NCBI GenBank assembly: GCA_017403825.1
Contig: JAFRDO010000056.1
Location: forward strand, 1-64,000
Length of the DNA: 64,000 nucleotides
Direction: 5' to 3'
From: Kiritimatiellia bacterium
GTDB taxonomy: Bacteria > Verrucomicrobiota > Kiritimatiellia > RFP12 > UBA1067
Part shown: positions 20,440-47,403 of the stretch, in pieces
How the letters are laid out: each line of letters starts with the position of its first letter
How positions within the stretch are numbered: position 1 is the stretch's first letter
Position numbers and translations under genes: made by a program
Notes under the pieces: model-generated
Databases searched by the model: none
What the model was told of the DNA's origin: nothing
The model's input: the letters and a program-made list of their open reading frames with translations, nothing else

Positions 20440-22305
20440 ATGAAATCGTTAACAGCGTACAAGTCCTCAATGGCGATGAACATTGTCTTTGCCACCTGTT
20501 TCGCGTCCGCGGCATACGGCTCGGCGAACGTCTTCGACGACGCCGTGTTCTGGTTCCGCGGCGGCAAGGACATCAGCGGCGATCACTGTATGCAGCAGGG
20601 CGAGTTCTTTGACGACCTCCATGCGAACGATGATAGCCATAATAACCACAAGATGCCTATGACAGGCTACACGGGATCGTATGTCGGATTTAAGGAAAAC
20701 GCTGAGATCCAATACGAACAGGTCGTATTTCCGGCGTTGGGAGCGAACATAGTGAAGGAAATGCAGGTTTTGCACATTTCCAATGCTGGCAAGCGATCGT
20801 CCGGCGTGACATACTACTATCCGTTTACTGTCAATCCGCATTCCATTTTTGAGAATATATCCACGGAATATACGATCGTCAGCAGGATAAAGATGGATGA
20901 AGACGGCTTGAAGCGTGACGAGTGTCTATTTAAGATAGGATACAATGCATCAGCAAAACAAGGAATGTATCTTGCTGTCGCACCGTCTCCTGCGAGTTCA
21001 GGCGTAAACGATATCGGATCCAGATACATAAAGGGAAGATGTACGCCTAATGACGGAGGCAACGACGCAAGTTTTCAGTTTCCCATCCGGATTCCGACGA
21101 ATACATGGGTCGATCTGGCAGTTGTGGTGGGAAACGACAAGCTGCGCATAGGCATTGCCACTCCTGAATCGTCGGCAAATCATGGCAACAATCCCACGAT
21201 CACTTTTGCCGAGACGCCCATGAGGACGGCTAACGGTTTGTCGTCCGGAGACCACTATCGACTGTTTTGCTATGCTGGGCAATCGTCTCCGACAAACGCA
21301 GCCAATGCCGACCAGACCTGTTTCATTGGAAGCGTCCAGCAGCTGGCGATATGGGGGCGGGCGCTTAGCGACCAGGATGTGATGGCGGCGTTCGGCATGC
21401 CGCGTCCGGCAATTTTCAGGACAGGGTTCGACAATGGTGCGTCTACCGAATTCGGCGGTACACGATCCGGCATGACACAGGCCATTGACGGGCTTGGCTC
21501 TTGGCAGGGCATCTCGGATACAATGCTTGCAGGGGACGAGTGGACGATCACCTTCAATGCGCTGCGCGACGAAGCCGGGCTTGCCCAAATATTTTCGTTC
21601 CGTTCGCTTCCGACTTCGGCTACGGCGGAAATTGCGGTCGAATTAAACGGAACGTCGCTCGGTACGCGGCGTGTCATGGATAACGCGCGCGTCTTCTGGC
21701 CTGTGACGAACAATCTTGTCACCATCGGCTCGAACACCTTGATCATCCGGCGCACAGACAGTGGTGCTGGTTCGTTCTGCATGGACGCAATGGAGCTTGG
21801 CGGATCGCTCGGCGTTGGTCGCGCTAACCATACGATAAATGACGGAAGAGTGTATCCTGATCGAATCGCAACCGGCGTTCCATCTGCGGCAGACCCGAAC
21901 CTAGCCCATTGGCCGGTGGGGCTCCGTCCTTATTCCAACAACAATACAAATCTCCGTTTCCGCGTGTGGGTGGATCCGGACGTCGTAGGTGTTTACCCCT
22001 CCAGATTCTGGACATGTGTCAACCGCTCCCCGCGTAGTAGTGGGTATGAAGTTACAGGAAGTGAGAACTTCACTATCTATGTAAATGGCGATGCGAAGAC
22101 CAATTATCAAGGTAATGCGAGTTGGGAGGATATAGAGCTGAAGTTCGATCCTGGTGTGTTGCACGGTGGATGGAATGATTTTGAGATAAGGGCAGCCGAA
22201 GCCTACGAGAACTGTCATTGGCTATTCGACCGTTACCGCTTCGAGACAGCCCTGCGGCGAGGGTTCAGTTTGCCGCCGCCGGGGATGACGGTCATTCTCA
22301 GGTAG
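20440..22305 (+). CDS. Secreted LamG/concanavalin-like domain protein with C-terminal hydrophobic-Arg tail
   Basis: A 621-residue exported protein. The ATG at 20440 follows a strong GAAGGAGG ribosome-binding site. After the signal peptide comes a laminin-G/concanavalin-like sandwich (AVFWFRGGKD, EYTIVSRIKMDEDG, TWVDLAVVVGNDKLRIG, FIGSVQQLAIWGRAL). A second beta region of about 200 residues (DEWTITFNALRDEAGLAQIF, TIGSNTLIIRR) looks like a carbohydrate-binding module. The last residues are PPPGMTVILR, a tail shared in type with other exported proteins here. It is 6 bp upstream of a clan-A glycosidase gene and probably co-transcribed. I infer glycan binding at the cell surface. No catalytic site was seen. 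Confidence 0.6.
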   Translation: MKSLTAYKSSMAMNIVFATCFASAAYGSANVFDDAVFWFRGGKDISGDHCMQQGEFFDDLHANDDSHNNHKMPMTGYTGSYVGFKENAEIQYEQVVFPALGANIVKEMQVLHISNAGKRSSGVTYYYPFTVNPHSIFENISTEYTIVSRIKMDEDGLKRDECLFKIGYNASAKQGMYLAVAPSPASSGVNDIGSRYIKGRCTPNDGGNDASFQFPIRIPTNTWVDLAVVVGNDKLRIGIATPESSANHGNNPTITFAETPMRTANGLSSGDHYRLFCYAGQSSPTNAANADQTCFIGSVQQLAIWGRALSDQDVMAAFGMPRPAIFRTGFDNGASTEFGGTRSGMTQAIDGLGSWQGISDTMLAGDEWTITFNALRDEAGLAQIFSFRSLPTSATAEIAVELNGTSLGTRRVMDNARVFWPVTNNLVTIGSNTLIIRRTDSGAGSFCMDAMELGGSLGVGRANHTINDGRVYPDRIATGVPSAADPNLAHWPVGLRPYSNNNTNLRFRVWVDPDVVGVYPSRFWTCVNRSPRSSGYEVTGSENFTIYVNGDAKTNYQGNASWEDIELKFDPGVLHGGWNDFEIRAAEAYENCHWLFDRYRFETALRRGFSLPPPGMTVILR

Positions 22306-22311
22306 CGCATT

Positions 22312-24939
22312 ATGAATCGCCTTGTAGCCGCAGTCTTGGCGCTGGCCGCGTCCTGCGGCATTGCCGTCGCGGGTGTTTCCTTCGAGGAGGAAATCCCCGT
22401 ATTCAGGCGAGGTGTCGATGCATGGCGCATTGATGGCGGACTGCGCGGCAAGTGGATTGGTTCCGGACTTGTCGTGTCGGTGTCCGGACGCTCCGGCTTC
22501 ACCATGAAGTACGACCGCTATCCCGGCATGAAGCCGTTTCGCGGTGCGGATGAAATCGTCCTTAAGATTAAATCGGTTGCGCAGGGCAAGGCGACTGCGG
22601 AACTGGCGGTTTTCGAGTTTCCGTACAGAAAGGGCGCGGATCCGATTAAGTTCTATGCGCCCATTTCCGCCTTCGCCAAGGCTACGGCGGATAAATCCGG
22701 CACGGCCAGGTTCAAGACTGGTCTTGATCCCGCGAAACACTACCAGATCGCCTCAGTCTCCATTCGGCGCGAGAAGGATGACGGCAGTCCATGGAAGGTC
22801 GCATTCTTGTCGTTGCGCGGCGTGTTTAGGGCGACGAAGGCCGAAGCGCTGCGCGTCGAGGCGGAGACGGGGAATCCACTTCACATCGTAAGGGAAGGCC
22901 AAGACGAACGGCCTGTGCTCGCCATCCGCAACGCGGCGCAGGAAAGAATCGCCGCGCGCGGAACGCTGAAGGTGGAGGGGTTCGGCGGTGACGCATTCGA
23001 CCTGCCGGTGGACATTGCGCTCGACGCCGGTGAGACCGTCAAGATCCCTCTGCATGTAGATGCCGTCAAAGGCGTGTGGAAAATACGCGGCGAACTCGCT
23101 GTGGACGACGGCAGCGTCGCATCCGTTGATACGCGCTTCGCCGTCATGGATTTCCACGGCATAACTCCGAAACAGCCGCGCGGGACGTTCCGGCTCGGCG
23201 TCCACTGGCACTTCCCGCGCTTCACTGCCGCCGACCGCAACCTCGCCGCGTCGGCCATGGTCGCCTGCGGCGCGAAGTTGACGCGCGCGGACTTCGCGTA
23301 CATGGCGAGCATACAGCCTGCGGGCCCGGACTGCTGGGAGTTCGCGCGCACGGACGAGCTCCTGGAAATGCTTGAGACGAACGGACTCGCGGTTGACGCG
23401 ATCATCTTCAAGACGCCACGGTGGGCGATGACGCCGCCGCCAACAAACATCGTCTGGAGGTCGTACGCCGTGCGGCCCCCCGCCGACGAAACTTTCGGCG
23501 CGTTCTGCGAACGTCTCGCCGCACGGTACGGAACGCGCATCGACTACTACGAAATCGGCAACGAGTGGGACCTCCGCTTCGGCGGCACGTACGACGAGGC
23601 CGTGGCCGTGCAGCGCGAGGCGTACTTGGGGCTGAAGAAAGGCTGTCCGGACGTGTGCGTTATACCGAACGGCTGGGCTGCCGCGGGGGACATCCCGAGC
23701 ATGGACGGGAAGGGGCGCACCTGGATACATGAATATTTCCTGAAAAACGCCAAGGACTACTTTGACGTCGATACGATTCACGGTCATGGTCCGTTTCCGC
23801 GATACATGAATTCGATTTCGCGGAAACTCTTCCCGCTCCGCGAACGTACCGGAGTGGCCGGCAAGCCCTGGTTCTCGAACGAGTCGGCGCTCACGAGCAA
23901 GTGGAGCGAACGCGACGCCGCAGTGGCGGTGTGGAAGAAAATCCTATGGGCCTGGGCGCACGGAAGCGTCGATTACGTCTGGTACAACCTGCGTGCGACC
24001 GGGTGGGACCCCAACAATCAGGAGCATGGCTACGGACTCGTCACGGCGGACTTCTTCCCGCGCGATTCCTACGTGGCCTTCGCCGCGTTGTCCTCTACGG
24101 TCGGCGGCGGCGAATTCCGGCGTGCGATTCTCGATACTGAAACGCGCTTCGTGTTCGAGTTCCGTGAAGGAAAAAACCTGGTTCTTGCGGCATGGGATGA
24201 AACCGCTCCGGCTGACGTCAAGGGTCTGGTGGAGACGGACGCCAAACGCGCCTGGCGCGTCGATCTCATGGGCAACAGAACCGCCTTGCCTTTGGAGGGA
24301 GGTCGGACGCAGCTGACTTTTGCGTTCGAGCCTTCCGCGCTCGTGCTCGAATACGCCACGTTTGCGTCCGTTGACGCTAGCGGGCTTTATGCAAAAAGCG
24401 AGGGCGACGGGGCGCGTGCAGTCGTAATTCCTCCGGACGCCTTCGGACGCGCGCCGGACTTCGCGCTTGAAATGCCGCAGCAGGTTCACGACTTCTACGT
24501 GGGGAATCCCGCGGAGAGGGATCGGCTCTGGAAAGGCACGAAGGACAATTCGGCGAAGGTGTGGCTCGCAAGGGAGGACGGCGGGCTGCGCATTCGCGTC
24601 GAGGTGGAGGACGATGCCCACTGCGAGCCGCCCGAAGGCGCGGCGCGGAACGAAGGCGACTGCGTCGAAGTGGCTGTTGCCGACGGGAGCGGCAACGGAC
24701 AACGGCGGTTCTCATTTGCGCAAACGGAACGCACCGGCACGGTCACGCGATACGACGCGCTTGTCCCGTATGACGCGGCTTCGGGATTCACCGCAAAAGC
24801 GCTTGAAGACGGAGTGCGCTTCAACCTGATCGTCAACGACAGCGACAGCGACAGGCGTGAATCCGCCATCGGAATCGCCACGGAAGCCTTCTTGTCGGAC
24901 AGCATGACAACCGCTCCTACGGTGCGTTTTGCAAAATAG
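22312..24939 (+). CDS. Secreted clan GH-A glycoside hydrolase with C-terminal CBM9-like domain
   Basis: An 875-residue protein with a signal peptide (RLVAAVLALAASCGIAVA). A beta-rich N-terminal region precedes a TIM barrel. Glu418 in YEIGNEWD fits the acid/base position of clan-A retaining enzymes. Glu524 in FSNESA is a plausible nucleophile, just before a Trp-rich strand (WAWAHGSVDYVWYNLRATGW). Residues 690-875 resemble a CBM9-type domain (SAKVWLAREDGGLRIRVEV). The nearest family could be GH39, GH5 or an unclassified relative; I cannot choose. A 26-bp palindrome inserted in frame encodes SAFAKATADK near residue 120. It follows the LamG-like gene by 6 bp. Confidence 0.7.
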   Translation: MNRLVAAVLALAASCGIAVAGVSFEEEIPVFRRGVDAWRIDGGLRGKWIGSGLVVSVSGRSGFTMKYDRYPGMKPFRGADEIVLKIKSVAQGKATAELAVFEFPYRKGADPIKFYAPISAFAKATADKSGTARFKTGLDPAKHYQIASVSIRREKDDGSPWKVAFLSLRGVFRATKAEALRVEAETGNPLHIVREGQDERPVLAIRNAAQERIAARGTLKVEGFGGDAFDLPVDIALDAGETVKIPLHVDAVKGVWKIRGELAVDDGSVASVDTRFAVMDFHGITPKQPRGTFRLGVHWHFPRFTAADRNLAASAMVACGAKLTRADFAYMASIQPAGPDCWEFARTDELLEMLETNGLAVDAIIFKTPRWAMTPPPTNIVWRSYAVRPPADETFGAFCERLAARYGTRIDYYEIGNEWDLRFGGTYDEAVAVQREAYLGLKKGCPDVCVIPNGWAAAGDIPSMDGKGRTWIHEYFLKNAKDYFDVDTIHGHGPFPRYMNSISRKLFPLRERTGVAGKPWFSNESALTSKWSERDAAVAVWKKILWAWAHGSVDYVWYNLRATGWDPNNQEHGYGLVTADFFPRDSYVAFAALSSTVGGGEFRRAILDTETRFVFEFREGKNLVLAAWDETAPADVKGLVETDAKRAWRVDLMGNRTALPLEGGRTQLTFAFEPSALVLEYATFASVDASGLYAKSEGDGARAVVIPPDAFGRAPDFALEMPQQVHDFYVGNPAERDRLWKGTKDNSAKVWLAREDGGLRIRVEVEDDAHCEPPEGAARNEGDCVEVAVADGSGNGQRRFSFAQTERTGTVTRYDALVPYDAASGFTAKALEDGVRFNLIVNDSDSDRRESAIGIATEAFLSDSMTTAPTVRFAK
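22666..22691. repeat. REP-like palindrome inside the coding sequence
   Basis: TCCGCC ... GGCGGA arms around a centre containing CCAAGG. It is translated in frame as SAFAKATADK, a peptide I recall from unrelated proteins in many environmental genomes, which points to a mobile palindromic repeat. Confidence 0.6.
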
Positions 24940-24980
24940 ATCGACGCGCCGCCCGGAGTCGAGACAATGGACGGCGGGCT

Positions 24981-27512
24981 CTAGTCCCAAAGTTCTATCT
25001 TCACCGGGCCGATCAAGCCCGATGGTTGAATGGGCCAGCTAGATGCGTCCAATGGCTTGTAGTCGATCCCGACCATGTTTATGTCCTCGAAGTTCTTCCA
25101 TTCCACGCCCTTGCGGTCCATGGCGCGTATGCGGTTTGCCCCAAGGTTTGTCACTTCGATTTCAAGCGTGTTATCGCCCTCCTTCAGCAGCCCTGCAGGA
25201 ATCTCTAGCCGGTAGGGATGCATGAAGACTGTCCCAGCGTATGTGCCGTTCACCGTGACGCGTGCGGAATTGCAGACTTCGCCGAGATCGAGAATCAATT
25301 TGGAGTTGAGAGTGGGTGAGTGAGGGAGTGGAGGAGTGAGGGTTGAGAGTTTGGTTGAGTACCTCGCCGTCCCCGAAAATTCCGCTTCTCGTTCGCCGAG
25401 CGCCGTCCAGTCGCCAAGCTCCACGTCTTTGCGCGTTGGCGGCATCTCCCAGCTGGAGACGTCCCTCACGAACGCGAGCGTCCACTTCGGGCCGACGGCA
25501 ACAGTTGCCTTTGGCTGCGTCTGCGGGACTTTTCCCTGCCTGACTTGCCCGGATTTCAGAAATGCGAACAAGGAATGCGCCGGCGGAAGCGTCCACGCGG
25601 TGCGCACGCCATTCCCTACGGAATCGGTCTCGCAGGCGCCTGACATCGGGTTCATCGCGATGGCGCCGTCTGGCAGCGAAAGCGCCGCGTCGTTAGTGGA
25701 CGAATTGACGATGAAATAGAGTCTGCCGCCTTGCCATGACATGCGAAGGGCATCGAACGGCGTATCGGCCGCTGCAAACCCGTCGCGCATGACGCCGGCG
25801 TTCGCAAGTTCCGCCACGGCGTCGGCTACGGGAGAGAGTCGAGAGTTGCGAGTTGCGAGTTGCGAGTTACGAGTTGAGAGTTGAGGGTTGAGGGTTGATG
25901 GAAGTCCGGGGGTGGTTTCCGGGAGCGATTTTTCGAAAATGACGGGCACACGGCGCGAGAAGGCCTTGAGTTTTTCGAGGGTCGCCTTTTTCATGAACTT
26001 CGTCTTCGGCACGACGATTGCCTTGTAGCGTGAGACGATGTCGTCCGAAAGGAACGGATCGGAAACGTAGTCGAAAGAATATCCGGCGTCGCGAAGGCGT
26101 TTGGCGAGACGGCCGAATTCGGTGGAAGCCATCCATCCAGACCGCACTGTCAGCCTGGTCTGGAATCCGTCTGGGTCGCCCCACAAGTCGTGCACGGGCC
26201 AGTAGAGCAAGATGTCGTTGTCCGGCCGCGCATCCGCGAGCAGCGACATCACTCTCGCGAAATATTCGTTGAGGCGCCCCATGTCGCGCCACAGCGGATT
26301 GCGAGGCGTGATCTGGCTTGAGGCGTAGAAGCACCGGCCCGGCCACGGAGCGGAATCGGGCGAATAGGGCGTTGCGTGGAAGTAAAGGCGATTCACGCCG
26401 GAGAGAAAGAGAAGGTCTCCGAATGCCTTCATCTCCTCTGGCGTTTCGCAGAAATGTTCGGCCATCCACGTGAACGCCTCGGCCGAGACGTGTTTGCTTC
26501 CGGCGAGATGCGCGGCGGAGGATGCGAACTTGGAGAAGAGTATGTCTCTGGCGCCGTCGCGGAAATCCCCGTCGAATCGGCTTTTGAACCTGTCGCGCGC
26601 GCCGCGCCCGAACATCTCGGTCTCCGGCGTGTCCGCGATGGCGTAGAACGCGAGCAGGTCTGCCGGCGCGCCGTGCGCCTGGTTGTGGACGATGATTCCG
26701 CGCTCGCTGCACCATTGCGTCCATAGCGGAAACACGTCTTTCGACAGTATGTCTGAAAGCGTCTCGCGGTAATCTTGCTTCACGCGCGCGACGGAATCCG
26801 CATCGCCGATTCCGGCAAGTTCCGCGTAGTGGTCTTCTATGCGGTAGCCGCGGTGCTTGAGGAAGAGTGCCGGAAACTCGTCTGACCAGTTGCATTCGTA
26901 CTCGAATGAATCGTGGAAAACCGCGCGCGGATACGCAGCCGAGGCTCCGTCGAGATTCCTGAACAGACCGAGATGCGCCGACATCGCCGCCGGAGAGAAG
27001 GGGTTCATCATGGGCCCCGAGTCGATCTTTTGGGCGCGTTTCACGCGTTGGCCTGAGAAATACGAGACAAGCCGCGTGTCATCCTTCTCGAACAGGAGTT
27101 TTGCACCCTTTGGCGCAGGTTCGCCAGGTTTGAGCGTTTTGAGATTTTGGCAGCCAAGCTTCTCTGGAATCACCCTGCCGCCGAAGCACCATCCAGCGCC
27201 GAACGAGAGGTCTACCTTCATGCCGTTAGCGGCGGCGAGTGCGTTGGCGTCCTTCAGGAGCGAGACGAACTCCGGCGACACGGTGGCGATGTTTCGAGCG
27301 TCGTTGCCTTTCACAGCGTATATCGGCACAAGCCTCACGCCTCCGAGGCCCGCCTCGGACCAACGGCGCATCTCCTTTGCGAGTTCCGCCTTTTCGACGG
27401 CGTTGCCCATGAGATGGCAGATGCCCCACGGGCGCGTCTCAGCCGTCGGTTCAACCCACTTTACCTCGCCGCAGGCATTGAGGGCGGCGGCAATCATCAG
27501 CACTGTTGTCAT
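24981..27512 (-). CDS. GH106-like alpha-L-rhamnosidase
   Basis: An 843-residue protein on the minus strand, convergent with the clan-A glycosidase. The N-terminal region (RPWGICHLMGNAVEKAELAK, AGLGGVRLVPIYAV, DLSFGAGWCFGG) follows the GH106 pattern. Mid-protein motifs include HDSFEYECNW and DTPETEMFG, and the C-terminal region is a beta-sandwich (LGEVCNSARVTVNGTYAGTV). GH106 enzymes invert and release alpha-L-rhamnose. The N-terminus MTTVLMIAAALNACGE is a short signal lacking the usual lysines. Two low-complexity segments (about residues 545-565 and 720-740) are encoded by GAGTTGN heptamer repeats. A TATAAT box lies 23 bp before the ATG. Confidence 0.75.
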   Translation of the reverse strand: MTTVLMIAAALNACGEVKWVEPTAETRPWGICHLMGNAVEKAELAKEMRRWSEAGLGGVRLVPIYAVKGNDARNIATVSPEFVSLLKDANALAAANGMKVDLSFGAGWCFGGRVIPEKLGCQNLKTLKPGEPAPKGAKLLFEKDDTRLVSYFSGQRVKRAQKIDSGPMMNPFSPAAMSAHLGLFRNLDGASAAYPRAVFHDSFEYECNWSDEFPALFLKHRGYRIEDHYAELAGIGDADSVARVKQDYRETLSDILSKDVFPLWTQWCSERGIIVHNQAHGAPADLLAFYAIADTPETEMFGRGARDRFKSRFDGDFRDGARDILFSKFASSAAHLAGSKHVSAEAFTWMAEHFCETPEEMKAFGDLLFLSGVNRLYFHATPYSPDSAPWPGRCFYASSQITPRNPLWRDMGRLNEYFARVMSLLADARPDNDILLYWPVHDLWGDPDGFQTRLTVRSGWMASTEFGRLAKRLRDAGYSFDYVSDPFLSDDIVSRYKAIVVPKTKFMKKATLEKLKAFSRRVPVIFEKSLPETTPGLPSTLNPQLSTRNSQLATRNSRLSPVADAVAELANAGVMRDGFAAADTPFDALRMSWQGGRLYFIVNSSTNDAALSLPDGAIAMNPMSGACETDSVGNGVRTAWTLPPAHSLFAFLKSGQVRQGKVPQTQPKATVAVGPKWTLAFVRDVSSWEMPPTRKDVELGDWTALGEREAEFSGTARYSTKLSTLTPPLPHSPTLNSKLILDLGEVCNSARVTVNGTYAGTVFMHPYRLEIPAGLLKEGDNTLEIEVTNLGANRIRAMDRKGVEWKNFEDINMVGIDYKPLDASSWPIQPSGLIGPVKIELWD
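25302..25360 (-). repeat. In-frame short tandem repeat, site A of GH106 gene
   Basis: Degenerate GAGTTGA/GAGTGAG-type units on the plus strand, read on the coding strand as Ser/Thr/Leu/Pro-rich sequence between the body and the last beta domain. Confidence 0.65.
25838..25903 (-). repeat. In-frame heptamer repeat, site B of GH106 gene
   Basis: Consecutive 7-bp units GAGTTGC x3, GAGTTAC, GAGTTGA x2, GGGTTGA x2 on the plus strand. On the coding strand they give NPQLSTRNSQLATRNS, a spacer in a loop. Confidence 0.75.
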
Positions 27513-27535
27513 AGAATTCCACTCCGTGGATCTGA

Positions 27536-27541
27536 ATTATA
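27536..27541 (-). promoter_or_regulatory. -10 box for the GH106 gene
   Basis: TATAAT on the minus strand, 23 bp before the ATG at 27512. The expected leader is about 17 nt and contains GGAG, so this promoter gives a leadered message. Confidence 0.45.
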
Positions 27542-27574
27542 CCAAAAAAACCGAATGCGCGATTGCGCGCCTCG

Positions 27575-27603
27575 TTGACTTTACGGTATTGTTATGATAA
27601 TAT
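27575..27603 (+). promoter_or_regulatory. Promoter of the DUF4143-type ATPase gene
   Basis: TTGACT, a 17-bp spacer and TAATAT form a good sigma-70 pattern. The start codon is 65 bp further on. Confidence 0.5.
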
Positions 27604-27617
27604 ATTGCACAGTCAAT

Positions 27618-27633
27618 TGAGCAAAATTGCTCA
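27618..27633. promoter_or_regulatory. Operator-like palindrome TGAGCAA-AA-TTGCTCA
   Basis: A perfect 7-bp inverted repeat just downstream of the predicted transcription start of the ATPase gene. The position is typical of a repressor site. No cognate regulator can be assigned. Confidence 0.4.
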
Positions 27634-27668
27634 GTACGGTTAGTAAAATTCGCAATGAAAGGTACAAT

Positions 27669-29991: not shown

Positions 29992-30384
29992 ATGAATAAA
30001 TCATACGGAATACAGCTGGCAACGGTACTTGCGGGTGCCGTCATGATTGTTGCATCAGTCGTCTCGGCGGCTGGTAGACATGTCTCGCTAACGGGGACGG
30101 GCGGTAGCATGGCTCTTTCTGAGCGCGGCGAGACAGATGATGTGGCGTGGCCGTCTGATTTCTGGACGGTATTCTCCAATCGCGTGACGGCGGCTCAAAA
30201 TGAGGACACTGCGGTTACGTCTTATTATTCAGCTACTGTCACACCAGCATTGGTCTCAGTTACGGAAGGGGGATTGGGTACGGTGGAGGAACCTCTCGAT
30301 TCTATGGACCGTTTCTGGTTCATTGTCGATGTGAGATTGTTCAATTCCACGTTTCCCAAGGGAGTGATCTTGATCTTCAGATGA
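29992..30384 (+). CDS. Small secreted protein with C-terminal hydrophobic-Arg tail
   Basis: A 130-residue protein with a signal peptide (IQLATVLAGAVMIVASVVSA) and no recognised domain. It ends in FPKGVILIFR, like the tails of the LamG-like and three-repeat secreted proteins. It could be a small surface component, or the shortened remnant of a larger tail-bearing protein. It is the first gene of a + strand series leading into three FGE-fold genes, 21 bp apart, and is divergent from the AraC regulator. Function unknown. Confidence 0.6.
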   Translation: MNKSYGIQLATVLAGAVMIVASVVSAAGRHVSLTGTGGSMALSERGETDDVAWPSDFWTVFSNRVTAAQNEDTAVTSYYSATVTPALVSVTEGGLGTVEEPLDSMDRFWFIVDVRLFNSTFPKGVILIFR

Positions 30385-30405: not shown

Positions 30406-31617
30406 ATGAAGAAGCAAGTTACGGTTCTTTTTAGCATTGTGCTGGCCTCGTCTGCCATGTCATCGGCTGTGCCCGAGGTTACAGGCGTGAAACTTGCCGC
30501 GGATACGCGTCGGGTGCACGTGACGTACACGCTCACGGGGGCTCCCGGTATAGTGACAGCTATGTTTCTTACAAATGGCGTTCCAATAGATTCAGTAACT
30601 GCGTTGGGAGGCGACGTAAATCGCTTTGTGACGAAACTGAACAGCACATGTTCGTTCACATGGATTCCAGAGTGTAGCTGGTCAGGGCATCGCGTCAAGG
30701 ACGGTTCGTTGTCGGTCCGTGTGACGGCGTGGTCCACGAACTGTCCGCCGGATTACATGGCCATCAATCTCTCAGTTGCGAACGCCGTGTTCTTCTACGA
30801 ACGTGCGGCGGATTTGCCTGGTGGCATTACGAACGATATGTACAAGACGGAGTGGCTGTTGATGCGTAAAATACCGGCTGCCGGTGTCGTATGGCACATG
30901 GGTTCACCGACATACGAATCCAATAGGAACGCCGATAATGAGGTGCTGCATCCAGTGATGTTGACATACGATTACTACATGGGCGTGTACATGGTGACGC
31001 AACGCCAGTATTACCTTTTCTCGGGCGGCTTGAATCCAAGCATGTCATTCATGAACGGAGACCAGCGCTGTCCAGTTAACAAGGTGAAGTTCTCGGGCAT
31101 GCGCGGTTCGACGTATTCCTGGCCGGCGGACGGGCACAAGGTGACGGCTGATAGTGCGATAGGCAAGCTTCGCGCCCATTCCGGTATCGATTCGTTTGAT
31201 CTGCCGACGGAGGCGGAATGGGAATACGCCTGCCGGGCTGGCTCGTTTACCGCCCATTACGACGGTACCGACACCACCATCTCGCTTGGTGACCTAGGTT
31301 GGTACAATTCCAATTCCGGCAGTAGCATGCATATTGTCGGACTCAAGCAGCCCAACGCATGGGACTTGTACGATCTTTATGGCAACGCTGGCGAGTTTTG
31401 TCTCGACAGAAAGGCTCCTTACACCAACACGGACAAAATCTCCATTGATCCTGTTGGTGCGGCAACTGGTTCCACGCGGGTATATAGAGGCGGTACGTAC
31501 GAACATTCGCACGACAGGGCCCGTTCGGCGTCCCGCGACGGATTGGGAGAGGAGAATGAGTATGGATCCCAGTATGGAGCGATGCGCCTAAAATGCGCAG
31601 CAGTTCTCTCATTATAG
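30406..31617 (+). CDS. Secreted FGE/SUMF1-fold protein, paralogue 1
   Basis: A 403-residue protein with a signal peptide (VTVLFSIVLASSAMSSA). An Ig-like beta domain of about 120 residues (VTYTLTGAPGIVTAMFLTNG) precedes an FGE-sulfatase/C-type-lectin-like domain with MGVYMVTQRQY, PVNKVKFSGMRG, FDLPTEAEWEYACRAG, NAWDLYDLYGNAGEFCLD and RVYRGGTYEHSHDRARSA. The paired active-site cysteines of true formylglycine-generating enzymes are not seen at the C-terminus. No sulfatase is nearby, so a binding role is likelier than catalysis. It is the first of three tandem paralogues. Confidence 0.8.
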   Translation: MKKQVTVLFSIVLASSAMSSAVPEVTGVKLAADTRRVHVTYTLTGAPGIVTAMFLTNGVPIDSVTALGGDVNRFVTKLNSTCSFTWIPECSWSGHRVKDGSLSVRVTAWSTNCPPDYMAINLSVANAVFFYERAADLPGGITNDMYKTEWLLMRKIPAAGVVWHMGSPTYESNRNADNEVLHPVMLTYDYYMGVYMVTQRQYYLFSGGLNPSMSFMNGDQRCPVNKVKFSGMRGSTYSWPADGHKVTADSAIGKLRAHSGIDSFDLPTEAEWEYACRAGSFTAHYDGTDTTISLGDLGWYNSNSGSSMHIVGLKQPNAWDLYDLYGNAGEFCLDRKAPYTNTDKISIDPVGAATGSTRVYRGGTYEHSHDRARSASRDGLGEENEYGSQYGAMRLKCAAVLSL

Positions 31618-31640
31618 AAAGGAAAGAAAGGAGTAAACAG

Positions 31641-32855
31641 ATGAAGTTCTTCTACACCATTTCCATTTGCCTATCTGTGACGCTTGCCGCAGTTGCGGAC
31701 GTCACTGGGGTCACTTTCCGTCAGGATCCGCTTACGCGGCATGTACGGATAGACTATACGCTTGACGCGCCGGCGATCATTACTGTTGATTTCTTGACTA
31801 ACGGTGTTTCCATTGGTGCCGAAAATTTCCGAGGCGCATCCGGTGATGTGAACCGTTTCGTGAAGACGCCGAGCGGAAGCATCGAATGGCAACCGGCGGC
31901 AACCAACGCATGGCCGGGATACAAGATCGCCGATGGCTCTTTTCAGGCTGTTGTGACGGCGTGGGCCACGAACGCCCCTCCGGACTACATGGCCGTCGAT
32001 CTCAATGCTGCGTCCAATGTGTTTTTCTATGTTTCTGAGGCGGCGCTCCCGTATCATGTTACGAACGACATCTGGAAGACGGAATGGTTGCTGATGAAGC
32101 GCATCCATGCGGCCAATGTGATATGGCGCATGGGGTCGCCGATAACTGAGTTGAACCGTACAGCTGCTAACGAGACGCCGCATCTCGTGCGCCTGACCGA
32201 GGATTATTACATTGGTGTGTACATGGTAACGCAACGCCAGTATTACCTCTTTTCCGGTGGTTTGAGGCCGAGCACGACATTCATGGGCGGTGACCAGCGC
32301 TGTCCAGTGAATACGGTTAAATTCTCAGCCATGCGCGGTTCGACGTATTCCTGGCCGGCGGACGGGCACAAGGTAACAGCGGACAGCGCTTTCGGAAAAC
32401 TTCGCACCCATTCCGGTATCGATTCATTCGATATGCCGACCGAGGCGCAATGGGAGTATGCCTGCCGTGCGGGAACTGGTTCCCGTCTGTACGATGGAAC
32501 CGATAGTTCGGATACGCTGACGGATTTGGGATGGTACGGAGTCAACTCGGCAGTAAACGGGACTACATCCATGCATCCTGTCGGCCTGAAACAGCCGAAT
32601 GGATGGGGACTTTACGATCTCTATGGAAATTCGTTTGATCTTTGCCTTGACTTCAACGAGCCATATGTGATAACTGATCTCGTGACGGTCGATCCCGTAG
32701 GGGCGACCAGCGGCACTTTTCGTGTGTCGCGTGGCGGATCGTGCGACCATGCCCAGAGTTATCTACGTTCTGCGGCGCGAAACAAAGCAAATCCCGAGGG
32801 CTCTTCATACTATCAGGCGTTGCGCCTTGCTTGTGCGGCACGAATCGGTTTCTGA
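31641..32855 (+). CDS. Secreted FGE/SUMF1-fold protein, paralogue 2
   Basis: A 404-residue protein whose ATG follows AAAGGAG. Signal peptide KFFYTISICLSVTLAAVA, then the same Ig-like plus FGE-fold layout as paralogue 1 (IGVYMVTQRQY, PVNTVKFSAMRG, FDMPTEAQWEYACRAG, GWGLYDLYGNSFDLCLD). A 45-bp stretch (32330-32374) is identical to paralogue 1 (31098-31142), while the flanks are more diverged. It lies 23 bp after paralogue 1 and 24 bp before paralogue 3. The catalytic cysteine pair is again absent. Probably a secreted binding protein. Confidence 0.8.
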   Translation: MKFFYTISICLSVTLAAVADVTGVTFRQDPLTRHVRIDYTLDAPAIITVDFLTNGVSIGAENFRGASGDVNRFVKTPSGSIEWQPAATNAWPGYKIADGSFQAVVTAWATNAPPDYMAVDLNAASNVFFYVSEAALPYHVTNDIWKTEWLLMKRIHAANVIWRMGSPITELNRTAANETPHLVRLTEDYYIGVYMVTQRQYYLFSGGLRPSTTFMGGDQRCPVNTVKFSAMRGSTYSWPADGHKVTADSAFGKLRTHSGIDSFDMPTEAQWEYACRAGTGSRLYDGTDSSDTLTDLGWYGVNSAVNGTTSMHPVGLKQPNGWGLYDLYGNSFDLCLDFNEPYVITDLVTVDPVGATSGTFRVSRGGSCDHAQSYLRSAARNKANPEGSSYYQALRLACAARIGF

Positions 32856-32879
32856 GGCAATAACGGAGGGAATACTTAA

Positions 32880-34124
32880 ATGAAACCATCTTGCATTTTG
32901 TTTTTCGTGGCTTTTGCGGCGGCGGCTTCGCATGCCACCGTGCCTACCGCGACCATCACCGGCGTGTCGACTGATGCCGCCACGCACGTTGTAACTGTCA
33001 CATACACGCTGTCTGGTCCTGCCATTGTTACGACGGACTTCCTCACGAACGGAGTATCGGTGGGGGCGGCAAACTTCTCTACGCTGTATGGAGATGTCAA
33101 CCGCTATGTGACGAATGTAACCTCGTCCTGCTCGTTCAAGTGGCTGCCGGGTGTTCATGGTGATTGGCAAGGAGGAAACTTCGATGTACGGCTTAAGACA
33201 TGGTCTATGAACTGTCCGCCGGATTACATGGCGGTGGATCTTGTCGCGACGAACCAGATATGGTTTTACGTTTCTGAGGGCGCAATACCGCTTGGAGTGC
33301 AACACGTGTTGTACAAGTCCACCAGACTGTTGATGCGCAAGATTCCGGCCGCTGGCGTAACTTACAGGATGGGGGCTCCCAGCACCGAAATCGTCAATGC
33401 GAACGAACCGGTGCATCTTGTGAAACTGACGAACGATTTCTACATCGGTGTCTTCCCCGTCACGCAGAGGCAGTGGAAGACCATGACGGAGCAGAATGCT
33501 GTTATCGGCCATAGGGACGAATCCACGCATCCTCAGCATTGGCTTTATCCGGTAAACAACGTGTCGTATAATGCCTTGCGCGGCTCCGTGGCGGACGGTA
33601 TAGATTGGCCAACCACTGCGCGTTTTGCCGTTGCTGTGAACAGTCATATCCAGACCATTCGTTCGCTTACCGGAATTTCGACGATGGACCTTCCAACAGA
33701 GGCTGAGTGGGAATACGCTTGCCGTGCCGGCGCGTCGGGTGCGCATTTCGACGGTTCGTCCATGTCATTGGCCGATACGGATGAAATCGGCTGGTATGCG
33801 AACAACTCGGCCGTGGGCGGAACGAAACAACCTCACCCGGTAGGATTGAAAAAACCTAACGGCTGGGGTCTATTTGACGTGCTGGGTAACATGCACGAGT
33901 GGTGCATGGACTGGAGTGGCGACTATGTGTTTGAGGATGCCGCAGTTGCGACCGTTGCGCCGAAGGGGGCGTTCTCTGGCACTTCCCGGGTGAAACGTGG
34001 CGGCGGAACGTACGAGCATGGCATACACCATCTGCGTTGCGCGAAGCGCGATGCCGGCATGCCGGACTCATCCACCGAATATAACGGTTTTCGTCTGTAC
34101 TGCAGTATCCCGGTCAATCCATGA
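32880..34124 (+). CDS. Secreted FGE/SUMF1-fold protein, paralogue 3
   Basis: A 414-residue protein whose ATG follows CGGAGGG. Signal peptide SCILFFVAFAAAASHA, Ig-like domain, then an FGE fold (IGVFPVTQRQWKTM, MDLPTEAEWEYACRAG, GWGLFDVLGNMHEWCMDW, RVKRGGGTYEHG). It is the most divergent of the three. It is closer to canonical FGE proteins in GNMHEWCMDW but also lacks the C-terminal catalytic cysteine pair. It contains an insert around PTTARFAVAVNSHIQ that the others lack. The three genes look like a duplicated array under one promoter. Confidence 0.8.
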   Translation: MKPSCILFFVAFAAAASHATVPTATITGVSTDAATHVVTVTYTLSGPAIVTTDFLTNGVSVGAANFSTLYGDVNRYVTNVTSSCSFKWLPGVHGDWQGGNFDVRLKTWSMNCPPDYMAVDLVATNQIWFYVSEGAIPLGVQHVLYKSTRLLMRKIPAAGVTYRMGAPSTEIVNANEPVHLVKLTNDFYIGVFPVTQRQWKTMTEQNAVIGHRDESTHPQHWLYPVNNVSYNALRGSVADGIDWPTTARFAVAVNSHIQTIRSLTGISTMDLPTEAEWEYACRAGASGAHFDGSSMSLADTDEIGWYANNSAVGGTKQPHPVGLKKPNGWGLFDVLGNMHEWCMDWSGDYVFEDAAVATVAPKGAFSGTSRVKRGGGTYEHGIHHLRCAKRDAGMPDSSTEYNGFRLYCSIPVNP

Positions 34125-39629: not shown

Positions 39630-39634
39630 ACTGC

Positions 39635-40212: not shown

Positions 40213-40250
40213 ACAGCTCAATTTGCGATCCACACCAACAGGAAAATCAT

Positions 40251-42203: not shown

Positions 42204-42207
42204 TGCG

Positions 42208-43227
42208 ATGATGCCTCTTGCAGCGGGATACCAGCATTTCGCGGACGGCGCGCCGTTCGCTGAGATTGCGTTGCGGCATCCTTCTGTCCGAGAAGTCTAT
42301 TTCCCATGGGTTGACGAGCCTTCGGGTCGTCCCAAGCTCGGCTTCGAGGAGGAGGGCGATCCCGACGAGCTTGAGGCGGCTTTGCGTCGCGACCTGACGC
42401 GGCTGAGGAATGCTGGCGTCAAGCTTGACCTTCTCCTGAACGCCAACTGCTATGGCGGCGAGGCCATGAGCGTTGCGCTAAAGAGCCGCATCGTGGACAT
42501 CGTCGAAAAACTCGATTCGTGGGAGTGCCGTCCCGAGATATGCACGACGTCTTCTCCGTTCGTCGCGCACGTCCTCAAGGGGACATTCCCCGAAATCGAG
42601 GTGCGTGCCTCCGTGAACATGCGGCTTACGACGCTGCAGGCGTTTCGATATCTCGCGCAGCTTTTCGACTCGTATTATCTCGGCCGCGACGTGCAGCGCA
42701 ATCTCGACACGGTGAAGCTCTTTTCGGACTGGTGCCACGCGAACGGAAAGAAAATCTGCATACTTGCGAACTCAGGTTGCCTCAGGAACTGTCCGTGGCA
42801 GACGTATCATGACAACTTGATTGCGCATTCGGACGATGCGATGAAGGCGAAGAACGTGGATGGGTGGTGCCCCCACTTGTGCTGGACCATGTACAGAGAC
42901 TCCGCGAACTTTGCCGAGATACTGAAATCGACATGGATACGCCCCGAGGACCTGCACCGCTACGAAGGCCTTGTTGACGTCGTCAAGCTTGCTACGCGCC
43001 AGCATGCGAATCCCGACATGGTGATATCGGCATACGAGCGCGGCGCGTTCGAAGGGAATCTTCTGGACCTTTTCGAACCTGGATTCTCTCCGGCGTTCTT
43101 TCCGCAGTTTATCGACAACGCGGCGTTTCCTCCTGACTGGTTCGACCGAGCGTCGTCCTGTCCGCGCGAATGCACGCAGTGTGAATACTGTGAAAGCGTA
43201 TTGGCGAAGGTCCTGAAGTCCTTTTGA
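42208..43227 (+). CDS. Peptidase U32-like protein with two cysteine clusters
   Basis: A 339-residue cytoplasmic protein. The central part (AFRYLAQLFDSYYLGRDVQR, ICILANSGCLRNCPWQTYHD) follows the peptidase U32/UbiU-UbiV pattern, whose members often bind a 4Fe-4S cluster. Cysteines are arranged as C-x3-C (CLRNC), then C-x3-C (CPHLC). The C-terminal tail CPRECTQCEYC has C-x3-C-x2-C-x2-C. Two clusters are possible. U32 proteins act in rRNA or ubiquinone hydroxylation or as collagenases; none of these explains coupling to a glycosidase, which lies 4 bp upstream. Alternative ATGs are at 42208 and 42211. Function inferred only at family level. Confidence 0.6.
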   Translation: MMPLAAGYQHFADGAPFAEIALRHPSVREVYFPWVDEPSGRPKLGFEEEGDPDELEAALRRDLTRLRNAGVKLDLLLNANCYGGEAMSVALKSRIVDIVEKLDSWECRPEICTTSSPFVAHVLKGTFPEIEVRASVNMRLTTLQAFRYLAQLFDSYYLGRDVQRNLDTVKLFSDWCHANGKKICILANSGCLRNCPWQTYHDNLIAHSDDAMKAKNVDGWCPHLCWTMYRDSANFAEILKSTWIRPEDLHRYEGLVDVVKLATRQHANPDMVISAYERGAFEGNLLDLFEPGFSPAFFPQFIDNAAFPPDWFDRASSCPRECTQCEYCESVLAKVLKSF

Positions 43228-43297
43228 AAGTAGGCACTATGGTTGGATTTTTCGGGGACTAGTCCACATCGACGTCTTGTGATTGAGATGCCATCGG

Positions 43298-43334
43298 TGG
43301 ACGTGAAATATTTGATTGTGCGATTTCACGTCCA
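43298..43334. promoter_or_regulatory. Perfect 12-bp inverted repeat with a third copy downstream
   Basis: TGGACGTGAAAT and its exact complement are separated by 13 bp. A further GGACGTGAAAT copy lies at 43353. No T-run follows, so this is not a standard terminator. It may be an operator or RNA hairpin. It is the main content of the 257-bp gap at 43228-43484. Confidence 0.5.
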
Positions 43335-43484
43335 TACTGGATTAACTTTGAGGGACGTGAAATTGTGGTTTGAGTTATATGTCGGTTTGGCTGGCGGGCG
43401 ATGGCTTGTGTAGCGGGAGATTATGGAGGCGGCAGGGTGGTGGTTTTGGTTGGAATGAGCGCCTTCGGCTTTGTTGCTTGTCTG

Positions 43485-44687
43485 TTATATGTCGGGTTGG
43501 CGGGTGGTGTGGCCGAAGTGGCGCTTGTACATCTGGTAGAGCTGCTTGGCGGAGGCGAAGTGCATTGCCTTGACGATGTTGCTCACGCTTTCGCCGTGGC
43601 GAATCCGCCGCTGGACTTCGTTCAGCCGCGCGTTGCTGATGGCCTTGTGTATCGTCGTGTGCGAGACTTGCGAGAAGCGCAGCTCCGCCAGTCGCCGCGA
43701 GCAACCAAGGTGGGCAATGACGTCGCTTGGCGTGAGGTCTTTCGTGCAGTTTGCGGAGATAAACTCAAGCGCGATGTTCACAAGGTGCGTAGCGGGCACC
43801 GATCGCGCCGTCGATTCGCCGGCGAACACGTCCTTTGCCGGTATGAGGACTTCGTGCGGACGGCCTTTCCATTTTGGATGCTTGAAGAGGAAGTCCAGTT
43901 CCTTAACGACCTGCCGCCCCATCATCCGCAAGTTCGGGATGACACTTGATATGCTCATGCCGCACTTGGCATGCTGCGAGATGTCATAGTCCACGCCAAT
44001 GACTGAAACCTGCGAGGGGACGGGAATGCATTCTGCTTTGCAGGCGTTGATGACGTCCGCCGCGCACATGTCGGATGCGGCCATGACGGCGGCGGGCTTT
44101 GGCAGGGCGCGTATCCATGTCCTTAGCTGCTCGAAGAAGTCTTTTGGCGAGAGCGGCGCAGGACTGGTCTTGTCTGGGAACACGGATGTTTCGCAGCCGC
44201 CGTCGCGCTTCATGGTCTGGCGGAAGGCCATCATGCGTTCGATTGAATAGAACAGGAAGTCCTTGGGAAGGTACTGATCGTCTCTCTCGTGGACGAATCC
44301 GGCCGATTTGTAGTCGCCGCGTTCAATGAGGTGCTTGGCTGCACGGCGTCCGATGTCTGCATTGTCGGTCCAGACATTTGCGATTGCATTGCAGCGGGCG
44401 GATAGCCGTCGGTCGGTTATATTGGCGAGAACCGTCGGGATTCGCGATTTGACTACTTTCTCCATCACCTCGTCGGTTCCTGGCATCGACAGTATGAAAC
44501 CGTCGTATGTCTTGCCGAATTCATTCACAAGTTCCTTGCTTGTGAAGTATGTTCCGGGACGGACGGCACTCAGAGCCCAATGGCTCGTATTGGACATTTC
44601 ATCAAGGATGCCGGAGAAAAGTTCCCGCCCTGTACACGTGTCCAGTGAGCACACAGCCAAGACGCTGCATCGATCTTTGAAGTTCAT
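43485..44687 (-). CDS. XylR-type transcriptional regulator (periplasmic-binding sensor plus AraC HTH)
   Basis: A 400-residue regulator starting at the ATG at 44687. Residues 5-280 form a LacI/periplasmic-binding-protein-like sugar sensor (VLAVCSLDTCTGRELFSGIL, VSVIGVDYDISQHAKCGMS). The last 100 residues are an AraC-type HTH domain (LTPSDVIAHLGCSRRLAELR, VSNIVKAMHFASAKQLYQMY). This order is that of the xylose regulator XylR, so it should activate genes on binding a pentose or related sugar. It diverges from the three-repeat secreted protein gene, with three TTGCG direct repeats in between. A TATACT box ends 7 bp before its ATG. Confidence 0.85.
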   Translation of the reverse strand: MNFKDRCSVLAVCSLDTCTGRELFSGILDEMSNTSHWALSAVRPGTYFTSKELVNEFGKTYDGFILSMPGTDEVMEKVVKSRIPTVLANITDRRLSARCNAIANVWTDNADIGRRAAKHLIERGDYKSAGFVHERDDQYLPKDFLFYSIERMMAFRQTMKRDGGCETSVFPDKTSPAPLSPKDFFEQLRTWIRALPKPAAVMAASDMCAADVINACKAECIPVPSQVSVIGVDYDISQHAKCGMSISSVIPNLRMMGRQVVKELDFLFKHPKWKGRPHEVLIPAKDVFAGESTARSVPATHLVNIALEFISANCTKDLTPSDVIAHLGCSRRLAELRFSQVSHTTIHKAISNARLNEVQRRIRHGESVSNIVKAMHFASAKQLYQMYKRHFGHTTRQPDI

Positions 44688-44694
44688 GGCGCAT

Positions 44695-44700
44695 AGTATA
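44695..44700 (-). promoter_or_regulatory. -10 box for the XylR-type regulator, leaderless arrangement
   Basis: TATACT on the minus strand, 7 bp before the ATG at 44687. There is no Shine-Dalgarno site. Confidence 0.5.
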
Positions 44701-44707
44701 TCATATG

Positions 44708-44768
44708 TTGCGTAAAATGGGATATTCGTCTTGCGCAAAATAGGGTTTTATGCCTTGCGTTCAGAATA
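44708..44768. promoter_or_regulatory. Three direct repeats TTGCG(Y) at 23-24 bp spacing
   Basis: TTGCGTAAAATGGG at 44708, TTGCGCAAAATAGG at 44731 and TTGCGTTCAGAATA at 44755. They are in phase at about two helical turns. This is the usual layout of AraC/XylR half-sites and lies between the regulator and its divergent neighbour. Confidence 0.55.
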
Positions 44769-44850
44769 ACGCATTTGATAAGATTGCCACCATCTATGGC
44801 TTAAATATCGGCATTTCCGTAATTCCTTAGAAACGAAAGTGAAAAAGAAA

Positions 44851-47403
44851 ATGAACAAACTGTTGACAATCTGTACGGCGGCTTCGCTGATCGCGCCACT
44901 TGCGTACGGCGAGGTCATCTACGAGAATGACTTCTCGACGCGTACGAGCGTTGGCGCCATTCCGACAACCGATTGGTACGAAATGCCCTATCATGTTGGG
45001 CAGCTTGCTCGCTACTATGATGATAGCAGCTGGATAGGTCCTTCGACCCCGTATGAAGCAAGTGACAAAATTCAGGATGGCTGGGCGCTCGCAAAAATCA
45101 CCGCTAGCGGTGATTGGAGTTTCGTAATGGCGGAACCGTTTGTGGAGATAAACAGCGTTGAGCAAGTGCCGGAAGGCGATGCTACGAATCCGTTCATGAC
45201 GACATATGGCGCACCCTACACACGCAGGACCATGGCCACGCATCCGCTTTTCAATGAGTTTTCCAATGGCGTCTTGCGCATTTCAGTGGACATGCGCGCG
45301 CCAACCGAATCCGGCAAATTCGCATCTGTTCGCCTACTGCCGCTTTGCAGGACGGATATGAACAGCCTCAATTGGGGCGGCACGTCATACTCTGCGCCAG
45401 CCGGGTTCGGCGTCCAATGGGTTGACGGGTACGGTGGTTCCATTCCTCTTCTCTTGTTTGGAGATGGAACGACGACAGGTGGGGATGGCGACTACATCTC
45501 CGGCGACATATTGGGGCGGAATTGGTGCCGTTTTGTGGCGGAAATCGATCTTGACGCAAAGACCGTTTCATGCTCAGCTAGCAATCTCGGGGTAGGCAAT
45601 CCAACTTTCGATACGGTGGGCACGCATGTCGGCTCGTTAACAGGCAAGAGGTTCTATCGCCCTGTTACATCTGAGAGTGGTCCGATTACCGGTCTTGGCT
45701 TGGAATTCTGGAATACTTTAGCCGACTACGGTGCTGTTAACGACGCCGTCTGCGTTGACAACATTTCCGTTGCATGGAAGGCTCCAGGCACGGACACGTT
45801 CCAGAGTTGCTACGAAAACGACTTTGCCGTCCGTAGATACCGTACACTGACGCCACCCGGCGTGGCGACAGGCTCTTACGATGGTTCGGCTGTCGCGTAT
45901 GACACCTTCAAATCCTACATTCAGGGTACGAAGATCGTCCCTGATTCAAACACCGATCTTAAGGACATAGAGCCGCAGCCGCTCGGCATCGACAACTGGC
46001 GGCGCATAAACGACTGGGGGACAGGCGGTGCGCATGTAATCGATTTTGGCGACTCAAACTTTGGCAATGTGCTCAGACTGTCTGGACCCGAATTCGTCTG
46101 CGTGTCGCAACCCCTTGGTCAAAACATCACAAGCGGCAAGGTCAAAATGTCCGCCGACGTGCGTCTCCCCGATCAGTGGCATTGGGACGTGGCGCGTTTG
46201 GCGATAGTTGACATGGGCGCAGAATCCTTTGCGTCCACGCTTTACTACGACTTCGCCAACAATCGTGTTGGTTCTGTCGGCGTGGGCGGCAATTCGAACA
46301 CAGAATTCCTTCCATGCTACAACACGAGCGCAGGAACACAATATGGCAGCGTCGATTGCACGCCTAGCAATTGGTATCGTCTTGTGCGGATTGCCGACAT
46401 CGACGCGCAGACGTACGACTACGCACTCTACCACATAGTTGATGGCGTGACCGAGGCGACGCCGGTCTTTTCGGTGAGCGGCCAGCCGTTTAGCAAGGAA
46501 GTCCGCTCCATCGGCGCGTTTGCACTGCTTGGCTATGCGCCCGGGACAACGACCGACACTGCGATTCTCTTCGACAACATCAAGATATGGAAGGGCGCGG
46601 CCACGGCGCAGGAAACGCTCGTCTATTCCAACGACTTCGCCACGCGGCAGCGTTTGGTGGATGTCGCTCGGACGGACGTGGCACCGATCATCGACCGCAT
46701 CGACAGCGGTGTGGATGGCTGGGTACGGCGCAACAACGGCACGGCTGGCGCATTCGTCCAGGCGGCGGCGAATCCAGCACTCGCCGTCGTCGATCCTGAC
46801 TCACACGCCTATGTGTTTCATCCGTTTGGCAAGACTGTCACCGGTGGCATTCTGCGGTTTCGCGTGGACGTACGCCCGCCTGCTCGCTGGCAATGGGACG
46901 TGTATCAGGGCGCAGGCGTCATTCTTGGCGATGACGTGTTTCTTCAGGGTAACAGAAACGGATCGGATTCGTTTATCACACATGCCTGCGTCGAGTTCGG
47001 TATGGAAAGCGCGGCAAAGATGGCTGATGCATGCGGCCTGTATGTCGGCGCGGTTCCATATCTAAGGTCTGGAAATGCAAATCAGACTGGCGAGGCGCTT
47101 GACACGACGCACTGGTATCGGTTCTGCGTGTCGGCTCCGCTTGATGCGGCAACATATTCCGTGAAGCTCTACGATATGGGCACGACCCATCCCGGGGCGA
47201 CATCCCGCAACGGTACGCTTGTTGAGGAGTTTACCAATCTCGCCTATAGGAATGGTAGGCCAGTCAAAGGCATTTCAGGCTTTGCATTGTCTGGTTTTGG
47301 TGCGCCGGGATATTCTGCATGGAATGCGGAGGATCCAGACGCGCTGCTGTTCGACAACATCAAAGTCGAAATCGCTCCAGGCATGATGATTATCCTCCGT
47401 TAA
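44851..47403 (+). CDS. Secreted protein of three repeated beta-sandwich domains with C-terminal hydrophobic-Arg tail
   Basis: An 850-residue exported protein; the ATG at 44851 is chosen, and a GTG at 44839 is possible. The signal peptide is followed by three repeats, each opening with a YENDFSTR-like block: VIYENDFSTRTS, QSCYENDFAVRRYR and LVYSNDFATRQR. Each has LamG/carbohydrate-binding features (ISVDMRAP, VKMSADVRLPDQWHWDVARL, LRFRVDVRPPARWQWDVYQG) and ends near LFDNIKIW or LFDNIKVE. The protein ends APGMMIILR. No catalytic residues were recognised. It probably binds glycans at the cell surface. It is divergent from the XylR-type regulator and likely under its control. Confidence 0.65.
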   Translation: MNKLLTICTAASLIAPLAYGEVIYENDFSTRTSVGAIPTTDWYEMPYHVGQLARYYDDSSWIGPSTPYEASDKIQDGWALAKITASGDWSFVMAEPFVEINSVEQVPEGDATNPFMTTYGAPYTRRTMATHPLFNEFSNGVLRISVDMRAPTESGKFASVRLLPLCRTDMNSLNWGGTSYSAPAGFGVQWVDGYGGSIPLLLFGDGTTTGGDGDYISGDILGRNWCRFVAEIDLDAKTVSCSASNLGVGNPTFDTVGTHVGSLTGKRFYRPVTSESGPITGLGLEFWNTLADYGAVNDAVCVDNISVAWKAPGTDTFQSCYENDFAVRRYRTLTPPGVATGSYDGSAVAYDTFKSYIQGTKIVPDSNTDLKDIEPQPLGIDNWRRINDWGTGGAHVIDFGDSNFGNVLRLSGPEFVCVSQPLGQNITSGKVKMSADVRLPDQWHWDVARLAIVDMGAESFASTLYYDFANNRVGSVGVGGNSNTEFLPCYNTSAGTQYGSVDCTPSNWYRLVRIADIDAQTYDYALYHIVDGVTEATPVFSVSGQPFSKEVRSIGAFALLGYAPGTTTDTAILFDNIKIWKGAATAQETLVYSNDFATRQRLVDVARTDVAPIIDRIDSGVDGWVRRNNGTAGAFVQAAANPALAVVDPDSHAYVFHPFGKTVTGGILRFRVDVRPPARWQWDVYQGAGVILGDDVFLQGNRNGSDSFITHACVEFGMESAAKMADACGLYVGAVPYLRSGNANQTGEALDTTHWYRFCVSAPLDAATYSVKLYDMGTTHPGATSRNGTLVEEFTNLAYRNGRPVKGISGFALSGFGAPGYSAWNAEDPDALLFDNIKVEIAPGMMIILR

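Follow-up and report, generated by a model that had tools for sequence, protein, structure and literature searches.

A short hydrophobic C-terminal tail on exported proteins of, apparently, the class Kiritimatiellia: a probable sorting signal

Introduction

In the genome to which the stretch of DNA analysed here belongs (64,000 nucleotides, hereafter the window), a short hydrophobic tail closed by a basic residue is a property of protein ends, confined to the C-termini of proteins with a signal peptide. These tails are real and well above chance, the case being stronger than the window alone could show, and their variants are spread over many families of a single class, apparently the Kiritimatiellia. 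On sequence grounds, the tail is probably a short C-terminal sorting signal, which a putative envelope receptor would read after Sec export to bring the protein to the cell surface.

Earlier classes of C-terminal tags, namely PEP-CTERM, GlyGly-CTERM, MYXO-CTERM and T9SS, each led to a sorting enzyme or a secretion machine. Here, a very short tag, shared by dozens of proteins within a clear phylogenetic boundary, makes the search for a partner concrete. The tail would mark a surface proteome, often encoded within glycan-degradation gene clusters. To our knowledge, little is known of surface polysaccharide handling in the gut bacteria of the tail-bearing class, a matter on which the one and only TonB-dependent receptor match in the window genome also bears.

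Tail-Bearing Proteins of the Window

Three proteins encoded in the window carry the tail. The sequence-only reading had listed four examples, of which GMTVILR, GMMIILR and KGVILIFR are confirmed in the sequence, each on a protein exhibiting the N-terminal signal peptide it had ascribed to them. The fourth, RAFLRMRK, is a different sequence; the phosphoesterase that ends with it lacks Gly at position -7, has Arg at -4 and no hydrophobic run, and was thus rejected as a member. The features concerned are the following:

83..2095, + strand, phosphoesterase-type protein ending RAFLRMRK (...STATRAFLRMRK), outside the tail class by its end sequence
17969..20380, + strand, GH92 glycosidase upstream of the LamG-like tail protein (genomic context)
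20440..22305, + strand, exported LamG-like protein of 621 aa with signal peptide, ending ...LPPPGMTVILR
22282..22302, + strand, tail GMTVILR of the LamG-like protein, stop codon next
29992..30384, + strand, small secreted protein of 130 aa with signal peptide, ending ...FPKGVILIFR
30361..30381, + strand, tail GVILIFR of the small secreted protein, stop codon next
30406..34124, + strand, three exported SUMF1/FGE-sulfatase-fold proteins (30406-31617, 31593-32855 and 32880-34124; PF03781, E 3e-19 to 9e-34)
44851..47403, + strand, exported three-repeat beta-rich protein of 850-854 aa, depending on start choice, with signal peptide, ending ...IAPGMMIILR
47380..47400, + strand, tail GMMIILR of the three-repeat protein, stop codon next
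47467..49008, + strand, GH39-like enzyme downstream of the three-repeat tail protein (genomic context)

The match of the LamG-like protein to PF13385 lies slightly under the cut-off (E 2.8e-5). The small secreted protein belongs to a recurrent small family adjoining SUMF1/FGE-fold proteins, and the three genes of this fold sit immediately downstream of it. The three-repeat protein constitutes an internal control because the tail is present after repeat 3 only; the three repeats are homologous, repeats 1 and 2 finish in DNI-x-x-x followed by a linker, and repeat 3 alone leads into APGMMIILR. An AF2 model of repeat 3 with the tail was poor (mean pLDDT 42) and tells little about whether the tail is free or lies within a sheet, and a GTDB scan with this protein as the query found no relative.

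Tail Frequency and Link to Export

Over the whole window genome (G000; 3.93 Mb in 96 contigs), the DNA pattern G-hyd-x-hyd-hyd-hyd-R-stop gives 41 matches versus 8 for the reversed control. At the gene level, about 500 genes were obtained with a simple gene caller from 40 stretches of this genome plus the window, most stretches being picked around pattern matches, so that per-gene tail frequencies are inflated. In this sample, the strict motif occurs once per 219,842 internal 7-mers, from which 0.002 would be expected at protein ends, and 28 were observed, a gap much bigger than the choice of stretches could produce. The strict tail is found in 26 of the 245 signal-peptide genes versus 2 of the 260 others (Fisher p = 4e-7), and the broad tail in 37 versus 4 of the same sets (p = 5e-9); this contrast, like the whole-genome count, is independent of the choice of stretches. 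Genes and signal peptides were called by home-made heuristics rather than by SignalP, and the generosity of the signal-peptide heuristic weakens the contrast instead of strengthening it. The few tail genes among the others correspond to stretch or contig edges or to a miscalled start, e.g., at locus L031, where a longer start adds a signal peptide. As such, the co-occurrence of tail and signal peptide anticipated by the sequence-only reading is borne out; far from being equally frequent in cytoplasmic proteins, the tail is very unequally distributed.

Of the 44 tail proteins retained on inspection, 41 start with a signal peptide; the remaining three are truncated by a contig or stretch edge. 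From the N- to the C-terminal side, their tails exhibit Pro at position -9 (13 cases), Pro or Arg at -8, Gly at -7 (44/44, by definition), mainly Met (15), Val (7), Phe (6) or Thr (5) at -6, Leu, Ile or Val at -4 (43/44), Ile at -3 (29/44), Ile, Leu, Val or Phe at -2, and finally Arg (38) or Lys (6) at -1. With its hydrophobic residues alternating or all beta-branched, the tail is strand-like. Across genera, the consensus G-[T/M/S/V]-x-hyd-x-[I/V/F]-[R/K/Q/W] is looser than the one originally put forward. The last recognised domain stops about 10-17 residues before the protein end, i.e., at residue 793 of 810 for a LamG domain, and at 599 of 612, 469 of 479 and 441 of 451 for choice_anch_Q domains in the window genome and in genomes G142 and G166, respectively.

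Carrier Proteins and Genomic Context

In the window genome, the tail follows unrelated domains, namely LamG, PA14, F5/8 type C, right-handed beta-helix with choice-of-anchor Q, Gly_rich_2, TIGR02601 beta-strand repeats and, in one protein, an N-terminal zf-HC2 anti-sigma domain. Nearly all of these passengers are beta-rich, many carriers are paralogs (LamG, beta-strand repeats), and proteins of only 76-130 aa carry the tail as well. The zf-HC2 protein (L038:9658-12153, - strand) combines the anti-sigma N-terminus with a membrane segment, a beta-repeat passenger and the tail, which recalls surface-sensing anti-sigma factors. At L042:10014-11011 (- strand), a sigma-region-4-like frame is followed by an anti-sigma-like membrane protein ending PRGMQIIFR and then by an FGE protein. 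Genome G142 encodes at least six near-alike choice-of-anchor Q/beta-helix proteins ending KGT[VL][FV]GFQ (L268-L273), a large group of paralogous surface proteins, and gave no exosortase match.

Tail genes are often clustered with exported glycan enzymes, sometimes with an adjoining regulator. Their neighbours include GH92, GH39, alpha-L-rhamnosidase, GH123, DUF4838 and a sodium:solute symporter; a Pfam scan of ten such neighbours gave no match for four. The majority of the exported enzymes in these clusters have no tail, which indicates that the tail is not required for export as such and that it marks a subset, mainly of non-enzymatic lectin- or scaffold-like proteins.

In a second recurring context, a small secreted tail protein directly adjoins one to four exported SUMF1/FGE-fold proteins (window:29944-34124; L032:12511-18246; L035:6626-12410; L037:5759-9943; L041:9399-13969; L188:5944-7478). 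The FGE-module proteins exhibit an Ig-like N-terminus ('PxVSNVxxxQ') and the partner is a secreted tail protein of 76-130 aa ('AWPxDYWQxVTN...'). This putative two-part module of small tail protein and FGE arrays is present too in a second Kiritimatiellae genome, i.e., that of RGIG6330 from sheep rectum (L188), another species, where the same small tail protein adjoins an FGE protein. The same organism is the best named relative for a neighbour gene in the window, consistent with the window stemming from a gut member of the Kiritimatiellia.

Conservation and Distribution

Across other genera, the three-repeat protein has homologs, and in the window genome paralogs, with 30-36% identity; all keep the tail, in the forms FGTSISIR, SGITIIFR, VGTVLTIR, TGTMIRIQ, TGTQLIIK, DGCCIMIR, PGSVFTIR and PGSIFSIR. 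The strict pattern, ending in R, is in clear excess over its control only in the family of the window, chiefly in genera g2, g137, g142 and g139, and in three of the ten genomes sampled from the genus of the window. A restriction of the tail to one family was nonetheless rejected, this pattern being too narrow and the GT variant class-wide. Matches to the GT-variant pattern versus control number 48/2 in G101, 26/1 in G231, 23/4 in G210, 22/8 in G193, 21/4 in G110, 19/3 in G202, 16/3 in G142, 15/2 in G217, 13/1 in G136, 13/4 in G196 and 9/2 in G166. Clear excess is absent in families f2, f5, f6, f8, f9 and f13, as well as in the other classes of the phylum, with at most nine matches in each genome listed from outside the class.

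Variants recurring in the class include GTLIFVR, GTMFIIR, GTVFGFQ and KGTLISVW. In five class members, the proteins read around GT matches, mostly with a signal peptide, end GTLFGFQ, GTVFGFQ, GTLIFVR, GTVIMLR, GTMFIIR, GTLFIIQ, GTIVLVK and GTVIMIQ, and two beta-repeat proteins of G101 end KGTLVRIW and PKGTLISVW. The terminal residue follows lineage, i.e., R or K in the genus of the window, W in G101, and Q in G142 and G139.

Within the genus of the window (g1), seven of the ten genomes sampled (G172, G240, G276, G279, G282, G284 and G285) exhibit little or no strict-tail excess and the other three have 26-41 strict-tail matches. This apparent loss or shift of the tail within one genus offers a useful contrast set in the search for a partner.

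Proposed Mechanism and Alternative Explanations

In the proposed mechanism, a tail protein would be synthesised with a Sec signal peptide ahead of at least one folded, mostly non-enzymatic, beta-rich domain, and would terminate in [P/K/R]-x-G-[T/M/V]-x-[I/L/V]-x-[I/V/F]-[R/K/Q/W]-COOH some 10-17 residues beyond the end of the last domain recognised. Following Sec export, a putative envelope receptor would recognise the free-ended, strand-like tail and direct the protein to the surface, by outer-membrane display or anchoring. The steps that we infer are receptor recognition, a location at the surface, possible cleavage and, from the T2SS-type pseudopilins in all class genomes sampled, passage by type II secretion. 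The terminal residue differing among lineages fits a tail and a receptor that may have co-evolved.

Alternatively, the tail could be a structural cap or assembly strand, completing its own domain or donated to a neighbouring subunit in a coat or fibre, with no role in sorting. The strand-like character of the tail and the beta-rich nature of nearly all passengers speak for it, but the passenger folds are unrelated, the tail is also present on an anti-sigma-type membrane protein and on proteins of 76-130 aa, it comes after complete domains, and two of the three homologous repeats in the window protein manage without it; this explanation is deemed unlikely. A degron or quality-control signal is considerably less probable still. 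In that scheme, an envelope protease or stress sensor would read the C-terminus, much as DegS reads the ends of outer-membrane proteins, and the tailed anti-sigma proteins would be part of the circuit; one carrier indeed has a zf-HC2 anti-sigma N-terminus and another, anti-sigma-like, lies right behind a sigma-region-4 frame. However, only 2 of the 44 tail proteins are of anti-sigma type, and the conservation of dozens of surface-type proteins sits poorly with the idea that their shared, conserved end is a degron. Inheritance only, with the tail as a neutral vestige of a single ancestral gene that underwent duplication and shuffling, would account for the many paralogous members (LamG, beta-strand repeats), but it is very improbable since it is contradicted by conservation, the tail being kept at 30-36% overall identity, on unrelated folds and in many families of the class.

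Returning to a sorting signal read at the envelope, a more specific form of it can be considered, namely that the Kiritimatiellia have a surface-display system of their own, apart from exosortase, T9SS and BAM, in which a receptor or translocon would read the helix-free seven-residue tail and display glycan-binding and other proteins; the chances of this appear evenly balanced.

Comparison with Known Sorting Systems

The sequence-only reading had likened the tail to those of PEP-CTERM or T9SS proteins, as a possible sorting or anchoring signal with a motif of its own; as far as sequences can tell, this appears supported, the carriers being unrelated exported folds and both systems themselves being excluded. 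It had also called for a processing enzyme or secretion system tracking with the tail; exosortase, SprA and T2SSG were examined to this end and none of these three tracks with it.

The PEP-CTERM/exosortase system (PF07589, PF09721) is a C-terminal tag system (PMC1569441) which resembles the tail in that many unrelated exported proteins per genome carry the tag, at their ends only and with a basic terminus. While the PEP-CTERM tag comprises a PEP motif, a membrane helix and an Arg cluster, the tail has neither PEP motif nor helix, and only 1 of the 44 tail proteins reaches, as a borderline case, a 17-residue mean hydropathy of 1.6 within its last 32 residues. A single exosortase is present in the window genome along with five canonical PEP-CTERM matches, which are small proteins ending like VPEPTSGMLMFLGLAGLALRRRRA, indicating that the PEP-CTERM system coexists with the tail. 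These proteins (L289:779-1264 and 7069-7509, L290, L291, L292) all correspond to small reading frames of 146-249 aa with the classic helix and Arg cluster, in contrast to the large tail proteins. Exosortase was rejected as the partner following a double dissociation, i.e., none was found in tail-bearing G142, and the tail-less genomes of f2, f5 and f6 do have it. That the tail is a shortened, remodelled exosortase substrate is therefore scarcely credible, despite the exosortase of the window genome and an order of motif, hydrophobic stretch and basic residue, since the tail is too short for a membrane helix, canonical PEP-CTERM proteins exist beside it, and tail and exosortase each occur without the other.

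With the C-terminal domains (CTD) of the T9SS, the tail shares a strand-like hydrophobic end, a terminal Arg or Lys and exported surface proteins as carriers. In the type B CTD (TIGR04131), the last strand reads G-x-hyd-T-L-I-R. T9SS cargo nonetheless has a CTD in front of its end, where the tail has none, the last domain being only about 10-17 residues away from the protein end. Some 30 proteins, nearly all tail-bearing, were scanned against NCBIfam; none matched the type A or type B CTD (TIGR04183, TIGR04131), and no CTERM or anchor model matched the tail. The T9SS was rejected as SprA was found in none of 16 tail-bearing genomes and in all five Bacteroidota positive controls. The beta-signal of outer-membrane proteins, a C-terminal F or W read by BAM, is likewise a strand-like envelope signal and the W-ending variant of G101 looks similar to it, but it places an aromatic end on a barrel, whereas tails end in R, K or Q (W in G101 only) and the Pfam domains of their carriers are not barrels. 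This candidate was also rejected, no barrel being recognised in the carriers and the TonB-dependent receptor of the window genome itself ending in F (...FALSYEF).

Choice-of-anchor proteins (NF041518, choice_anch_Q) have a surface-type domain right before a C-terminal tag, and three tail families do have choice_anch_Q, but the tail matches no NCBIfam anchor model. GlyGly-CTERM/rhombosortase (PMC3237569) and MYXO-CTERM/myxosortase (PMC11980579) rely on tripartite tags with a membrane helix; as with the tail, dozens of proteins in a genome share a single short tag, but the tail has no helix. Regarding type II secretion, PF08334 (T2SSG, one T2SS marker) was found in all class genomes sampled, tail-bearing or tail-less, so that the route is available but the distribution of the tail is not explained by it. 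No description of such a tail was found in the literature consulted. Like the short C-terminal sorting tags as a whole, it is confined to exported C-termini that follow unrelated domains; it would join them while matching no described one, and may point to a new machine.
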